The translations under genes were made by a program, and so were the position numbers. A stretch of DNA of 64,000 nt from Labilibaculum euxinicum (GTDB lineage: Bacteria; Bacteroidota; Bacteroidia; Bacteroidales; Marinifilaceae): NCBI RefSeq assembly GCF_009795715.1, contig NZ_WTCR01000001.1, positions 248,001 to 312,000 on the forward strand, given 5' to 3'. A model generated the notes under the pieces. It was not told where the DNA came from and searched no databases. It worked only from the letters and a program-made list of their open reading frames with translations. Positions 37,601 to 43,840 of the stretch are shown one piece after another (the stretch's first letter is position 1; each line of letters begins with the position of its first letter).

Positions 37601-38824
37601 TCAACAGAACAAAATCCTGTAATTACATATAATACAGTTGGTACATTTGACGTGACGCTTACTATCAGCGATAATGAGTATAATGATACAGAAACAAAAG
37701 TTGGATACATTACAGTTCTTGATCCTGACGATTTTGATGATACTTTACTTTACAATATTTCAGCTGAAGATGAATCAAAATTGTCCATTTATTCTTTAAC
37801 TTGGGGATATACATCCGGACACAACAATTATAACATGTCTCAATTTGCTGAGAAATTTGAGATGGTTAATCCTAACTTAAACGTTGTACGAAGTATTCAG
37901 CTGAATCCGGTTTTTGTAGAAGCACAATCTTCAGATCCTAAAATTGCAATCAAAATTTGGAATGGTGAAAGCATACCCGAAACTGAAATTTATTCAAAAG
38001 AAATTGCATTTTCTGAACTGCAGGCCCGCCAGTTTAATGAAATTATTCTTGACTCTCCAATTGAAGTCAACTCTAGTTTCTTTGTTGGCTACGAAGTCTT
38101 TTATGAAAATCCTGTTGATACATTTGCTGTTTGGCATCTTCCTTTAGATGGAGATATTACTTGGGACAATTCAGCCTACCTTACCTATGAAGGTGAATGG
38201 AAAAGTTTCTCGGATGGAAGTATCTATGCTGCCAATTCAGCATTAGCCATTAAAGCATTAGTTGGATATGAAGAAAATATTGCACCTCCATTGAAGGCTG
38301 ATTTTACCGTAAACTCAACTACCACAACAACAGCAGACAATATTAGCTTTACTGATTTATCAACAGGCGCAATTGCATCATGGGAATGGAATTTTGCAGG
38401 TGGTACTGCTGACGATAATACATTGCAGAATCCTACTGTATCATATAGTGAAGCAGGGATTTATGACGTAACATTAACGGTAAACGGCACAAATGGTACA
38501 TCAAATACCAATACCAATACCAATACCAAAGAAAATTATATAACCGTTGAGATGGCTACAGCAATTAATGAACTGGGCGAAGAAGTTGAAAAGCTAATGA
38601 TATATCCTAACCCACTGGTGTACAAAAGTAATGTAGTCTTCCCTAACAAAACCAATCAGAAATACCGGTTGGTGGTTGTGGATGCCAGTGGCCGTGTGGT
38701 TCGGATTATTGAAAATATTACAGGAAACAACGTGATTATAAACCGGGAACAATTGAAACCCGGTGTACATATCATCAACCTTTCGGGCGAAAAAATATAC
38801 AAGGGAAAACTATTGGTGAAATAA
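34631..38824 (+). CDS. Secreted beta-propeller/PKD protein with type IX secretion signal
   Basis: The 1397-residue protein has a signal peptide (1-19). Residues ~115-850 carry repeated Asp-box/BNR-type motifs (STDNGVSWT, STDNGDSWT, STDGGTSWT, TTDGGTTWT), as in sialidase and VPS10-type propellers. Three PKD-like domains follow (about 861-950, 955-1035, 1217-1300; FVGYEVFYENP lies in a jelly-roll-like insert between the second and third). The last ~80 residues (LMIYPNPLVYKSNV ... GVHIINLSGEKIYKGKLLVK) are a type A C-terminal domain for type IX secretion. The enzyme activity, if any, is unknown; no catalytic sialidase residues were identified. Confidence 0.88.
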   Translation: MKSIFTILLAIAISFPILAQNKKLTAQKHSTLGVKNIVITEKTYNDLTNPTLNKRKLAKIADKEAGKPKRADDPIARALYERNLLKNPLTGQIPLNIKELEKAYVLSSASGLQSRLKTGGLSYINSGPRNVGGRTRALAIDMNDATGNTILAGGTTGGMWKSTDNGVSWTRTTKLEDHPSVTSIAQDPNNTAIWYYTTGELIGNSASAGSAPYRGNGLFKSTDNGDSWTSLTSTASNTSEIYDAFDYAWNICIDPINSDVYVATSDGIKRSTDGGTSWTDVIESDSYYEDIICTPSGIKYTSLSADGTTKGIYRSVTGNLNDWEDITPSGFPADYNRVVLAHAPSNTTNDIVYILGETIGAGFQDHSFWKLTYNPAATTPATWVDRSQNLPEGGDGDTDVNGYNSQGSYNMVIKVAPDNENMVFIGGTNLLRSDDAFATKASPLSVGKSTDESKTYWIGGYATENNISQYPNHHPDVHALVFKNDNATLLCGHDGGISITNNYKQTDDTFSETAGDKSMPVDWEFLNNGYLTTQAYTVAVDNDIRTNKVLLSGFQDNGTWLAETSDPDKDWLAWGSGDGSYCSIFNLGTSIYSSSQSGTTYLENNVTDEASYYWTRVDPEGATGQLFINPFVEDANNSEILYYAAGQYIWRNSNIFEIPKLQSNEANINWEKLEISKASGTVSAMESSTFPAHILYYGTSTGKVYKIENSHSKWAKKNDITGTNMPAGNVISIDANPLNANEVLVGFSNYGIESIFSTTDGGTTWTPVSGNLEEINGENNGPSIRSVAYMVSPTDTTYYAGTSTGLYSTTKLEGSSTIWTQQAINQIGTSVVSMIKARRDGFFAVATHGNGVFTADDDFSSAAPVALIGMTKDSIQIGEAVDFMNRSIGDGFTKWEWTFEGAETTTSADEHPRGITYNTSGVYKVSLTATNAAGETTQEISSAIVVKSVKSNFIANTTNVNVGTQVSFTNQSTGSDLNYNWSFPGGTPDNSTEQNPVITYNTVGTFDVTLTISDNEYNDTETKVGYITVLDPDDFDDTLLYNISAEDESKLSIYSLTWGYTSGHNNYNMSQFAEKFEMVNPNLNVVRSIQLNPVFVEAQSSDPKIAIKIWNGESIPETEIYSKEIAFSELQARQFNEIILDSPIEVNSSFFVGYEVFYENPVDTFAVWHLPLDGDITWDNSAYLTYEGEWKSFSDGSIYAANSALAIKALVGYEENIAPPLKADFTVNSTTTTTADNISFTDLSTGAIASWEWNFAGGTADDNTLQNPTVSYSEAGIYDVTLTVNGTNGTSNTNTNTNTKENYITVEMATAINELGEEVEKLMIYPNPLVYKSNVVFPNKTNQKYRLVVVDASGRVVRIIENITGNNVIINREQLKPGVHIINLSGEKIYKGKLLVK
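38504..38527 (+). repeat. AATACC x4 in-frame microsatellite
   Basis: Four perfect copies of AATACC encode an Asn-Thr repeat in the third PKD domain/linker. Changes in copy number would keep the frame. Confidence 0.9.
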
Positions 38825-38849
38825 GAAGATCAAATAGATATTTTAGTGA

Positions 38850-38880
38850 GAGCTTGTCGTAATTCGGCAAGCTCTTTTTT
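38850..38880 (+). terminator. Terminator after the secreted propeller gene
   Basis: GAGCTTGTCG/CGGCAAGCTC (38850-38859 and 38865-38874, one G-U) with a 5-base loop and a T-run. Confidence 0.9.
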
Positions 38881-38936
38881 CTCCTCAGACACCAACAAAG
38901 CTTCTTAGCTGGACACGATATACCCCTTATGACGTA

Positions 38937-39166
38937 TTTTACATCTCCTGATATATATTTTACTATCTGCATGATGAATTTTACATCATAAATCAGGTAT
39001 TTTACTTACTGTAAATCGTTTTTTACATCTTTTATTATCTTTTTACCTAATCTGATAGGTAATTTACATCTCATATTATCTTTATTACTTAAATTATTAC
39101 GTTTTTTACATCATAAAGGATGTATTTTAATGACTAAACTATTGATTTTACTATCTATAAGGTTTA
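38937..39166 (+). repeat. Phased 21-bp repeat array (11 TTTTAC boxes), candidate operator array
   Basis: TTTTAC or a close variant starts at 38937, 38958, 38979, 39000, 39021, 39041, 39062, 39083, 39104, 39125 and 39146, so the spacing is 21 bp throughout, apart from one 20-bp step. Only the first 6-10 bases of each unit are conserved, and the other ~12 vary. CGTTTTTTACATC occurs twice (39017-39029 and 39100-39112), which points to partial duplication. The array ends where the predicted promoter of the helix-turn-helix gene at 39275 begins. It fills most of the 394-base gap after the preceding terminator. Function inferred, not shown. Confidence 0.75.
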
Positions 39167-39193
39167 ACTTTATACTTGTAGGAAGCATATTTG
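39163..39193 (+). promoter_or_regulatory. Weak promoter of the helix-turn-helix gene
   Basis: TTTA (39163-39166), a 19-base spacer and CATATTTG (39186-39193) each differ by one base from the TTTG and TAnnTTTG consensus. The -33 element touches the last repeat unit. Confidence 0.4.
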
Positions 39194-39274: not shown

Positions 39275-39646
39275 ATGAACCCAAAATCAGAAAAAATCCC
39301 CTTCAGCATTCACCGAATGATTCGACAAAACTTATCGAAACGAAACCTAACGGTAAGCTGGTTAGCACGAAAAATTAATATCCGCCCTATTTCACTTCAC
39401 CAACAACTGGACAGATCAACACTTCAGGTAAACAGACTATGGAGTATCTGTCAGGCTCTTGAATTAAATATTTTTCAGGAAATTGCGAATAGACTGGAGA
39501 GAGAGAATCAATCACAAAAGGCTGTAGAAAAAGGCATGGAACTATCTCAGATAGATGCAGAAGTAGATGGCCTTAAAAAAAGAATCGAGTTACTCGAAAA
39601 CGAAAACAAAACCTTAAAAGAGGTAATCAGTTTACTGAAAGGTTAA
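39275..39646 (+). CDS. XRE-like helix-turn-helix protein with C-terminal leucine zipper
   Basis: The 123-residue protein has an N-terminal helix-turn-helix region (about 11-72: LTVSWLARKINIRPISLHQQL, then STLQVNRLWSICQALELNIF). This resembles the small Bacteroidota XRE-like regulators with the pattern TVxWLA...LLxRIS...ALxxDFF. Residues 97-121 form a regular leucine zipper: Leu at 100, 107, 114 and 121 in the d positions, and V97, I104, N111 and I118 in the a positions. A single Asn at a is the hallmark of parallel dimeric zippers such as GCN4. It is likely a dimeric DNA-binding protein. The repeat array directly upstream is the obvious candidate target, which would make it autoregulated; that is inference. 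Confidence 0.75.
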   Translation: MNPKSEKIPFSIHRMIRQNLSKRNLTVSWLARKINIRPISLHQQLDRSTLQVNRLWSICQALELNIFQEIANRLERENQSQKAVEKGMELSQIDAEVDGLKKRIELLENENKTLKEVISLLKG

Positions 39647-39718: not shown

Positions 39719-41530
39719 TTAACTACTCAACTGATCCAACAAACTATCCTCATCATCGAAAGTAGAATCTGAAAAATTTAATGCTGTTTCGATAATCGCC
39801 AAGTGGGAATAGGCCTGTGGAAAATTACCTAGCATTCGTTTCGAAACAAAATCGATATCCTCAGCAAACAAACCCAAGTGATTTGAATAGGTTAATAACT
39901 TATCAAATTTCTGTTTTGCCTCCTTCTTTTTGCCAATTTTATACAAACTGTTTATCAACCAGAAAGAACAAATTGTGAAAGCTGACTTTGGCGTCCCAAA
40001 ATCGTCCTTATTTTTATAACGATACATTAAACCATCATGTTCCAATTCGTTTTGAATGGTTAGTACTGTCGATTTATACTTCTCATCTGCGGCATTGATA
40101 AAACCATAACTCTCCATTAACAATACAGATGCATCCATATCCTCAGAACCATAAAATTGGGTGAACGCCTGTTTCTTTTCACTCCAGGCCTTTTTCATGA
40201 TATCTTCTTTCACCGAATGTCGAAGAATGGTCCACTTCCCCACATAATAATCGCGCTTCAAAAGAGTTGCAATTTTAACCGCCCGGTCGAAAGCCACCCA
40301 GCACATCACTTTACTAAAAGTGAAATGAAGACTTCTACCACGAATTTCCCAAATTCCCCGATCCGGCTTTTTCCAATTCTCCTCTACAACCTTCACAATG
40401 CTTCTTACAATGGTCCATAATTCCTCACTATGATCGAGAGAATTTTCAAACATTTCGAAATGCTGATGAATCAGATCCACCAAAATTCCATAAATATCAT
40501 TCTGTTTTTGCTTGTAGGCAGCATTCCCAACGCGAACCGGTTTCGATCCTTCATAACCTGCAAGGTGTTCCAACTCGAATTCCGAAAGCTTTTTCTCACC
40601 ATTAATACCATACATGATCTGAATTTTCTCATTCTTCTCAGGAATAATATCCATAATAAAATTCAGGTATCGTTTTGCCACATTATAATGTCCCAATTGG
40701 GTGAGAATCTTAACAACCATAGAACCATCACGAATCCAGCAAAAACGATAATCCCAATTTCTAACTTCACCTATTGTTTCGGGTAAAGATGTTGTTAATG
40801 CAGCAAGAACGGCTCCACTTTTTTGATAACTTAACAATTTCAAAACCAATGCACTTCGATTGGATTCTTCATTATATTTAGGCAGTACTTTGGTTTTTTC
40901 GCTCCAATTCAGCCAATATGTTTTTGTGCGCTGTAATTTCAAATAAATTCGGTCAAGTGTTTGTTCCAGTAACTTCTGATTGTAACTAACCTCGCAAAAT
41001 TCATCTTTTTCCAATTCAATGACTTCCTGATTCAATATATCAGAACCTTTAAAACTGGAATACAAATACAAAGAATCGTAATTACCTGATGTTGTATACG
41101 ATTTTATAAATTTCTCACTGGACAATTTATTTTTAGTTGTATTTCGGGCATAATCCAGTTGAGGATTGTATTTAATCCGAAACTTTGGTTTTCCATAAAC
41201 CAATCGAAAAAAACGAACTACATCAGGAGGCATGTAGTAATCATTTTTCTCTGTTACATATCTGGGCATAAAATCCAAAACTTCAAAAACTCCATCGATA
41301 CACTCAAATCTTGTTTTTAAAATATTTGTATTTTTTCGGTACTCCTGTGTAATATTTGTTGCACTCTCAGGTAAAATTTCAAAACTACCACCTTTACTCT
41401 TATCCAACAACTTAGCAAATGCCGAAGATGAATCAAATTGTGGCAAACACACCCAATCCAACGACCCCTTTTCCGAAACCAGTGCCGCACTTCTACAATT
41501 TCCTATTACCCCGTAATTTAAATTCTTCAT
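39719..41530 (-). CDS. Glycoside hydrolase family 15 protein (glucoamylase/trehalase-like)
   Basis: The 603-residue protein opens with YGVIGNCRSAALVSEKGSLDWVCLPQFDSSS, the typical N-terminal super-sandwich of bacterial GH15. The (alpha/alpha)6 barrel includes WDYRFCWIRDGSM, GYEGSKPVRVGNAAY and GIWEIRG. No signal peptide is present, so it acts in the cytoplasm. It is divergent from fused otsA-otsB (102 bases between starts), and some GH15 enzymes are trehalases, so breakdown of trehalose is a reasonable guess. A glucoamylase-type activity on other alpha-glucosides remains possible. Confidence 0.88.
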   Translation of the reverse strand: MKNLNYGVIGNCRSAALVSEKGSLDWVCLPQFDSSSAFAKLLDKSKGGSFEILPESATNITQEYRKNTNILKTRFECIDGVFEVLDFMPRYVTEKNDYYMPPDVVRFFRLVYGKPKFRIKYNPQLDYARNTTKNKLSSEKFIKSYTTSGNYDSLYLYSSFKGSDILNQEVIELEKDEFCEVSYNQKLLEQTLDRIYLKLQRTKTYWLNWSEKTKVLPKYNEESNRSALVLKLLSYQKSGAVLAALTTSLPETIGEVRNWDYRFCWIRDGSMVVKILTQLGHYNVAKRYLNFIMDIIPEKNEKIQIMYGINGEKKLSEFELEHLAGYEGSKPVRVGNAAYKQKQNDIYGILVDLIHQHFEMFENSLDHSEELWTIVRSIVKVVEENWKKPDRGIWEIRGRSLHFTFSKVMCWVAFDRAVKIATLLKRDYYVGKWTILRHSVKEDIMKKAWSEKKQAFTQFYGSEDMDASVLLMESYGFINAADEKYKSTVLTIQNELEHDGLMYRYKNKDDFGTPKSAFTICSFWLINSLYKIGKKKEAKQKFDKLLTYSNHLGLFAEDIDFVSKRMLGNFPQAYSHLAIIETALNFSDSTFDDEDSLLDQLSS

Positions 41531-41632
41531 AAAAAAATGCTATTTTAGAGCTTAACCATAAAAACTCCACGGAAAATAAAGATTTTCCATGACTTTAGAC
41601 TGTTTTTAAACCAAAATTTAAATTTCCTTTTT

Positions 41633-43840
41633 ATGAATCGAATTCACATTGTCTCCAACAGACTCCCTTTTAGTATTAACGTAGAAAATGACAACATCGA
41701 ATTAATTCCGAGTGTTGGCGGGCTTGCAACAGGTATGAGGTCGGTTTACAAAGAATACAATGGAAAATGGATTGGCTGGCCGGGATTACCAAGCGATGAT
41801 CTTGATGATCAATTAACTGCAAAAATTGAAGAAGAATTAATTAAAGAAGATTGTATATCTGTTCATCTGTCGAAACAGGAAATAGACTTGTACTATGATG
41901 GTTTTAGTAACCGGACTATTTGGCCGCTATTTCATTATTTCGCGCAATATATTGATTACGATCATGAATTATGGGACGCTTTTGTAAGCGTGAATCAAAA
42001 ATTTGCTGATAAAGCACTGGAAACTATAGAGGAAGGTGACACCATTTGGATTCACGACTATCAATTATTACTGGTTCCTGAAATGATAAAATCAAAAAAA
42101 CCTGGTGTTACCATTGGTTTTTTTCTCCACATCCCCTTTCCTTCTTTTGAAGTCTTTCGAATTTTGCCATGGAGAAAAGAATTGATACAAGGCATTCTGG
42201 GTGCTGATCTGATAGGCTTTCATACTTTCGATTATCAAAGACATTTTTGCAGTTCGGTGCGTCGTTTAATGGGGTACGAGATTTCATTCAACCAAATTCA
42301 CATCGAAGACCGGATTATACTTGTTGATTCCTTTCCAATGGGAATTGACTACGATAAATTTAGAGATGCTGCAAATCAAACATTTCAAAAGCCGCTTCAG
42401 GAAAAATCGAAGCTTCATCGTGAGCTGGAAAAATATTTTCTGGTTTCACCTGAACGAAAGCTAATTCTCTCGATCGATCGAATGGATTACTCGAAAGGAA
42501 TTCCAAACCGCTTACGGGCTTTCTCAAAATTCTTAGAAGATTATCCTGAATTTATAGGCAAAGTAACACTGATAATGCTTGCGGTACCATCCCGTGGAAC
42601 CGTGGAACACTATATCAACCTTAAGAGAGAGGTGGATGAATTGGTTGGAACTGTAAATGGTAAATTCGGGAGTATTAACTACACGCCGGTTTGGTATTTT
42701 TACCGTTCGCTACCCTTCGAAAACCTGATTGAATTGTACAGTTCATGTGATGTTGCTCTGGTAACACCTGTGCGCGATGGAATGAATCTGGTTGCGAAAG
42801 AATATGTAGCATCAAGAACAAATAGAACAGGTGTTATCATTTTAAGTGAGATGGCAGGTGTTGCCAAAGAAATGGGGGAAGCTCTGATAATTAATCCCAA
42901 CAATATTAATGAAATTGCAAGTGCTATTAATCAGGCCTTAATCATGCCGCTTGATGAGCAGCGGGAACGGATGATCTTTCTTCAGGATAGGATAAAACGA
43001 TATGATGTTTTCAAATGGTCCAGTGAGTTTGTAAAATCTTTAGCAAAAGTTGAAAAAATACAAAACTCCTTCTATGCGAAGAAAATTAATAGTAAAATCA
43101 TGGAAAATCTTAGCTCGAAATACCATTCTGCAGAAAGCAGGGCTATATTCCTTGACTACGACGGAACCTTAACCGGCTTCAGATCGAATCCAAATGATGC
43201 AAAACCGGATGAAGAGCTTCATAAAATTCTTTTCAAACTGGAAGAAGATCCTCGTAATGTAATTACAATTATAAGTGGCAGGGACAGAGTTAGTCTGGAG
43301 AAATGGTTTGACGGACACAAAATCAATTTGATTGTTGAACATGGTGTTTGGCTTAGAAAAAATCAAAAAGAGTGGAAAATGCTAAGCAATGCTTCGGATA
43401 TATGGAAACCAAATATTCGTCCTACTTTAGAAACCTTTGTTGACCAAACACCAGGGTCTTTTATCGAAGAAAAAAATTATTCTCTGGTTTGGCATTTCAG
43501 AAAAGCAGAACCTGAACAAGGAGAACTTAGAGCAAATGAGCTTCGGGACGAGTTAACCACAATGATCGCCAATCACAACCTCGAAATATTAGAAGGCAAT
43601 AAAGTAATAGAAGTGAAAAGTGGCGGGATAAACAAAGGGATTGCCGCTATGCAATTTCTTAAAAACCAAGATTTCGATTTCGTGATGGCCATAGGAGACG
43701 ACTGGACTGATGAATACATGTTCCGTGAACTTCCGGAATCGACTCATACCATAAAGGTTGGACTTAAAAACACAGCAGCAAAATACAAAGTTGAATCTGT
43801 TGCTTCAGTTCGAAAACTACTTTCGGAATTCATTAAATAA
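41633..43840 (+). CDS. otsAB: Bifunctional trehalose-6-phosphate synthase/phosphatase
   Basis: The 735-residue protein joins a GT20 synthase (about 1-470; HDYQLLLVPEMI, SIDRMDYSKGIPNRL, VTPVRDGMNLVAKEYVA) to an HAD-type phosphatase (from about 500; FLDYDGTL with D508 and D510, then GDDWTDEYMF). It makes trehalose-6-phosphate from UDP-glucose and glucose-6-phosphate and dephosphorylates it to trehalose, a compatible solute. The fused form is common in Bacteroidota. A strong terminator follows, so it is monocistronic. Confidence 0.95.
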   Translation: MNRIHIVSNRLPFSINVENDNIELIPSVGGLATGMRSVYKEYNGKWIGWPGLPSDDLDDQLTAKIEEELIKEDCISVHLSKQEIDLYYDGFSNRTIWPLFHYFAQYIDYDHELWDAFVSVNQKFADKALETIEEGDTIWIHDYQLLLVPEMIKSKKPGVTIGFFLHIPFPSFEVFRILPWRKELIQGILGADLIGFHTFDYQRHFCSSVRRLMGYEISFNQIHIEDRIILVDSFPMGIDYDKFRDAANQTFQKPLQEKSKLHRELEKYFLVSPERKLILSIDRMDYSKGIPNRLRAFSKFLEDYPEFIGKVTLIMLAVPSRGTVEHYINLKREVDELVGTVNGKFGSINYTPVWYFYRSLPFENLIELYSSCDVALVTPVRDGMNLVAKEYVASRTNRTGVIILSEMAGVAKEMGEALIINPNNINEIASAINQALIMPLDEQRERMIFLQDRIKRYDVFKWSSEFVKSLAKVEKIQNSFYAKKINSKIMENLSSKYHSAESRAIFLDYDGTLTGFRSNPNDAKPDEELHKILFKLEEDPRNVITIISGRDRVSLEKWFDGHKINLIVEHGVWLRKNQKEWKMLSNASDIWKPNIRPTLETFVDQTPGSFIEEKNYSLVWHFRKAEPEQGELRANELRDELTTMIANHNLEILEGNKVIEVKSGGINKGIAAMQFLKNQDFDFVMAIGDDWTDEYMFRELPESTHTIKVGLKNTAAKYKVESVASVRKLLSEFIK

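Follow-up and report, generated by a model that had tools for sequence, protein, structure and literature searches.

The window analyzed here is a stretch of 64,000 nucleotides from Labilibaculum euxinicum, a member of a genus that NCBI places in Marinifilaceae, Marinilabiliales, Bacteroidia. Downstream of a gene for a PKD-domain protein, the forward strand carries a predicted terminator-like hairpin followed by a T-run (38849–38882), an array of short boxes (38937–39166), and an open reading frame for a 123-residue helix–turn–helix (HTH) protein (39275–39646), the presumed binder of the array. From the sequence and a regular-expression scan, we also predict a promoter-like site on this strand (39142–39172), composed of TTG (39142–39144), 20 bp, and TAACTTTA (39165–39172). 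TTG-N20-TAACTTTA resembles the Bacteroidota promoter consensus, and the eleventh box (39146–39151) sits between its two elements. Downstream of the HTH gene lies a GH15 gene in convergent orientation, and no filament-forming ATPase gene adjoins the HTH gene in an operon. Beside this module, positions 39719–43840 hold a trehalase-like/GH15 gene and a gene for a trehalose-phosphate synthase–phosphatase fusion, and the upstream PKD-domain gene contains a perfect 6-bp repeat, AATACC, in 4.3 copies (38504–38529).

The original prediction described eleven TTTTAC boxes at a 21-bp step. Each of the eleven positions does hold TTTTAC or a one-base variant, and the array is real. The exact word stands at eight positions (38937, 38958, 38979, 39000, 39021, 39041, 39104, and 39146), and the other three boxes read ATTTAC (39062), TATTAC (39083), and TTTTAA (39125). 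Nine of the ten steps are 21 bp. The sole exception, 20 bp between 39021 and 39041, occurs in L. euxinicum only among four aligned orthologous arrays, in which the array is otherwise conserved; because the other three have 21 bp there, the short step is, judging from the alignment, either the loss of 1 bp in this genome or an error of its assembly within a run of T.

The signal lies in the phase rather than in the word, because TTTTAC as a plain word shows no more than a slight excess in the window (91 occurrences versus 76 expected, a count reached in 4 of 100 shuffles). Across 38925–39180, lags 21 and 42 give base identities of 0.52 and 0.53, and the remaining lags from 1 to 60 give 0.25–0.42. 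The predicted periodicity is the strongest in the window: the top score across the 64 kb at lags 14–40 is that of lag 21 at 38919 (1.54; the runner-up place at this lag scores 1.24), and the stretch upstream of the HTH gene (locus L001) lies 11.4 standard deviations over the mean of 60 dinucleotide shuffles.

An AlphaFold2 single-chain model of the HTH protein (mean pLDDT 85.7, pTM 0.55) has helices at residues 12–22, 27–33, 38–46, 52–62, and 66–122. Residues 12–62 (39308–39460, forward strand) would make up the HTH domain, and residues 66–122 (39470–39640, same strand) a long C-terminal helix, probably a coiled coil. Pfam HTH_26 matches the protein at 17 bits, below its 22-bit cut-off; of 22 family members, 17 match this model with E ≤ 0.01. 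The Foldseek neighbors are ClgR, C.Esp1396I, and HipB (best E 4.8e-3, none ≤ 0.001). By its predicted structure, then, the window protein has an HTH fold of the Cro/C1 (XRE) type. Searches of PADLOC, NCBIfam, and PHROGs gave weak matches only, and an identical protein was found in Labilibaculum manganireducens.

Homologues occur in 15 of 59 genomes searched, the window's genome counted, and a 21-bp period lies upstream of many of them. By rank, they were found in 30 of 56 genomes in the family, 63 of 295 in the order, 59 of 395 in the class, and 6 of 395 in the phylum (cut-offs 1e-3, 1e-6, 1e-12, and 1e-12, respectively), and all six phylum-level genomes belong to the same class. After removal of loci with less than 220 bp upstream, proteins shorter than 60 residues or with an internal stop, and exact duplicate proteins, 174 distinct homologues were available. 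The best lag beating all 60 shuffles was 21 in 71 of these, 22 in 5, and 28, a harmonic of 42, in 3, with at most three homologues at any remaining lag. At z ≥ 5, 68 have arrays of 21 or 42 bp, 4 have arrays of 22 bp (L152, L164, L183, and L204), 95 have none, and 7 are ambiguous. Two alternating unit types appear in 7 of 67 arrays. In 169 control regions taken downstream of the genes, a score over 1.3 at lag 21 or 22 was reached once. Lag 21 is also the most frequent best lag in these controls (27 regions, with lower scores), a preference that could come from codon periodicity.

The arrays are associated with one part of the gene family. On a tree of 141 proteins of 85–145 residues, built after thinning and omission of the seven ambiguous rows from a small number of columns and with many of its forks open, presence of an array changes 10 times versus 47 in shuffles, and arrays precede 49 of 54 rows in the main clade and 18 of 87 in the remainder. 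In a genome found later (G1085), five of six members have 21-bp arrays (scores 1.81–2.39) and the sixth has none. One of these five genes (L351) is broken and keeps a strong array before it (2.39). Loss of the phase where the gene is kept had been named as evidence against an operator; the close orthologues (L001–L004) keep the phase, whereas 5 of the 54 main-clade members lack a clear array. The gene is mostly solitary, a same-strand open reading frame of at least 110 residues starting within 60 bp downstream in only 1 of the 37 loci (among 67 array rows) that had downstream DNA sufficient for this test. A regular-expression scan places a promoter-like motif at 11 of 68 array loci, a minority, versus 3.6 expected. 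At L009 and L018, the array ends 130–270 bp before the start codon, and the promoter-like site lies past it; in the distant members L161, L163, and L173, the array extends almost to the start codon.

Unit sequence varies with the HTH domain. The three members in the window's genome have unlike units (similarity 0.26–0.37), and across the 68 arrays of 21 bp, to which our motif tests were confined, unit similarity is 0.30 at HTH identities below 40%, 0.55 at 80–90%, and 0.80 at 90% or more. At identities of at least 80%, 26 of 27 pairs have their units in the same orientation relative to the gene. Two pairs of paralogues on different contigs of the same genome have agreeing units (L069/L107, 0.85; L157/L185, 0.74). 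The global Mantel correlation (0.109 versus a permutation maximum of 0.098) is small because the majority of pairs show background similarity. Part of this co-variation is explained by shared descent. Protein columns 29, 35, 37, 38, 42, and 44, in or beside helices 2 and 3, are more variable in the 67 array-bearing than in the 74 array-less proteins, as are columns 12, 13, and 34, which lie outside the recognition helix. An array finder counted 361 of 368 steps at 21 bp, but it was seeded on exact 21-bp rows, which biases its spacing counts, and we do not rely on them.

Columns and phase also appear constrained between species. In four orthologues of the window array, 14 of 154 positions vary within −6 to +7 of a box start versus 25 of 76 farther away (p = 2e-5), a split picked after the counts were seen and drawn from sequences of which two are identical here. 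Over 14 orthologue pairs, which share sequences, all 14 column correlations are negative (3 individually significant, pooled rho −0.33): columns that agree between units change less between species. Inside the arrays, seven pairs have no gap columns, three have exactly 21, and the other four have 1, 2, 4, and 19; outside the arrays, 13 of the 14 pairs have gaps, varied in number. Thus the phase is kept while the letters drift, and array length appears from these alignments often to change by one whole unit. The original prediction of an operator array before an HTH gene is well supported by these comparisons, by the period before 49 of 54 clade homologues, and by units that track the HTH domain; what has to be given up is TTTTAC itself as the essence, because the class-wide gene–array family has differing unit sequences.

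The symmetry of the units is less uniform. The window box may be half of GATGTA-TTT-TACATC, and from this element and AGGTTTAAAACC a dyad would be expected in every unit. That expectation was rejected: 18 of 57 arrays are significant at p ≤ 0.05, and the window array is not (p = 0.17), so we claim a dyad for part of the family only. Plain palindromic units occur in L148, L156, L163, and L169. In a genome-wide search for a regulon of the window protein, GTANNNTAC pairs 21 bp apart with at most two mismatches were fewer than in the reversed control (122 versus 355 per strand). Single RATGTATTTTACATC sites with at most two mismatches on both strands number 114 versus 31 for the reversed control; we make no use of this excess, given that it applies to the matches listed and that the sequence is rich in AT and almost a palindrome.

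Similar arrays occur apart from the gene. In 1.264 Mb, a quarter of the window's genome, a scan found 22 tandem places, including two 21-bp arrays with family genes. Three further 21-bp arrays (L261:9618–9796, L223:2943–3150, and L254:7101–7320) and two 42-bp arrays (L226:12800–13110 and L270:5301–5640) are intergenic and adjoin no family HTH gene. Such arrays can therefore exist for another reason. Intergenic arrays with a 41-bp period (L258:126, L260:11470, L255:11826, and L268:16640) and a 23-bp period (L259:2004, L281:14299, and L237:10208) also occur in this genome; L259 and L281, on different contigs, have a common unit with ACGACNACAACGGTCGTG. The orphans were compared first with the three family arrays of this genome and then, together with orthologous sites, with the arrays of the whole family. 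One match was consistent. The L254 array, upstream of a gene for a 120-residue membrane-protein-like product, is present in four and absent from four of eight congeneric genomes that have this gene, and its reversed unit has L090-group arrays as its three best partners in all four species (mean similarity 0.534 versus 0.314 for 63 other arrays, maximum 0.473; L100, a member of the group, does not match, at 0.34). The L254 array may thus be a second target of an L090-type paralogue, a match that we treat as a lead because the group was named after the result was seen. A candidate match of the L223-type unit, at genus level, to L030, L091, and L025 is weaker (0.42–0.58).

The array probably serves autoregulation, as a multi-site, one-faced operator of the downstream HTH protein. 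According to this model, protein dimers, probably joined through the C-terminal helix, would bind one unit after another of an array that lies about 110 bp upstream of their own gene; the two-turn spacing places all units on the same side of the DNA. Occupancy would extend to the last box and the promoter-like site overlapping it, which would thereby be shut, and the outcome would be negative autoregulation; binding, dimer form, cooperativity, and repression are all steps that we infer. Every paralogue would have its own array and its own specificity in a module that stands alone, so that copies in one cell need not cross-talk, and at least one paralogue may bind a second array elsewhere.

The main rival to autoregulation is a role as a centromere or anchor, in which the array would carry a protein filament for chromosome organization or segregation, as with KfrA or ParR on plasmids, and autoregulation would be secondary. 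The number of sites, far in excess of the apparent need for repression, speaks for such a role, as do the arrays that may sit apart from a gene and the combination of HTH and long helix, which resembles that of KfrA, described in PMC7783346 as a participant in plasmid maintenance. We nevertheless consider it unlikely, since a partner gene was not seen (the neighbor-ORF test was positive in 1 of 37 loci), several different gene–array pairs coexist in one genome, and the array lies directly upstream of the gene.

More doubtful still is the idea that the arrays are minisatellites, by-products with little function in genomes prone to tandem repeats of about two or four helical turns. The orphan arrays of the window's genome, with periods of 21, 23, 41, and 42 bp, point in this direction, as does the region that precedes the L223-type gene in eight congeners (L290–L297). 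There, one 21-bp unit is common to five genomes; in the same place, G005 carries a 21-bp unit unrelated to it, G004 has a short run that by eye resembles that of G005, and G001 has none. The replacement in G005 is the strongest indication that mutation tends to produce two-turn arrays. Such a tendency may be how the arrays arise. Against the by-product reading stand the association with 49 of 54 members of a gene clade, compared with about five orphans of 21 or 42 bp in a quarter of the genome, and the conserved columns and units that track the HTH domain.

Two further alternatives carry even less weight. The original prediction had raised phased T-tracts that bend DNA; as a rival explanation, they would curve the promoter region with no need of a sequence-specific partner, and the window boxes are indeed T-rich and in phase. 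T-tracts are, by eye, not common to the arrays, however: L069, L090, L104, and L110 hold the 21-bp phase without one per unit, which makes curvature very improbable as the general explanation. That the repeat encodes seven-residue repeats or acts as RNA, for which one could cite that 21 is a multiple of 3 and that orphan array L223 has open frames, is scarcely credible given that no open frame crosses the best window of the array, that 22-bp arrays exist, and that the array precedes the promoter-like site.

Beyond autoregulation at single loci, a broader picture is possible, although we advance it as speculation. Throughout the class, the proteins of diversifying protein–array pairs might each form a one-faced filament on a private array of many sites and act as a self-recognizing switch or anchor of the chromosome. 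Recognition helix and boxes would drift together and so renew the specificity, and gene-less arrays would be second sites of such proteins or relics of lost ones. If the pairing of protein and array is true, each array is the binding site of its protein written many times, and the family would offer dozens of natural protein–DNA specificity pairs, material for reading the Cro/C1 recognition code. It would also be a test case for helical-phase cooperativity across many sites, perhaps a source of regulators for Bacteroidota that do not cross-react, and a reason for intergenic repeats that otherwise pass as minisatellites.

Several known systems resemble parts of this arrangement. C.Esp1396I and HipB are Cro/C1-type autoregulators with operators in their own promoter regions, and their genes are parts of restriction–modification or toxin–antitoxin pairs; they have the same HTH fold as the window protein and differ in having few operators rather than long arrays. 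ParR/parC, iterons, and MraZ boxes are phased or serial repeats close to the gene for the protein that binds them. ParR has an ATPase partner, however, iterons serve replication, MraZ repeats are short, and all three binders have other folds. The window protein is predicted to have a Cro/C1-type HTH rather than the ribbon–helix–helix of ParR, and no replication initiator (Rep) family of iteron replicons is among the Pfam matches. BldC is likewise a small DNA-binding protein on a series of direct repeats, variable in number; as PMC5859096 describes it, it has a MerR-like winged HTH without a coiled coil, its repeats are 9 bp, and its targets are other genes. Foldseek and Pfam point for the window protein to a Cro/C1-type HTH instead. 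The TAACTGA repeats are intergenic arrays as well, many of them directly upstream of start codons and some in Bacteroidota, but according to PMC4679880 they consist of a single fixed heptamer, with no binding protein identified and no cognate gene per array.

The closest parallel is KfrA of plasmid RA3. PMC7783346 describes a single-gene autorepressor of 355 residues with an N-terminal HTH and an α-helical tail, whose operator consists of five 9-nt repeats in both orientations overlapping its own promoter, at least two neighboring repeats being needed. The solitary gene and the HTH with helical tail, here predicted, are common to both systems, as are repeats that overlap the gene's own promoter or, in the window, its promoter-like site; KfrA differs in being plasmid-borne, in its larger size, and in its few, short, two-way repeats. 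No model of the KfrA N-terminal domain family is among the Pfam matches of the window protein or its family. The layout in the window would fit KfrA-type autorepression through repeats in the gene's own promoter. We found no description of such a matched protein–array family in the literature searched, which took in few subscription journals. Autoregulatory operator repeats as such are already known, and it is the family of gene–array pairs that is apparently undescribed.
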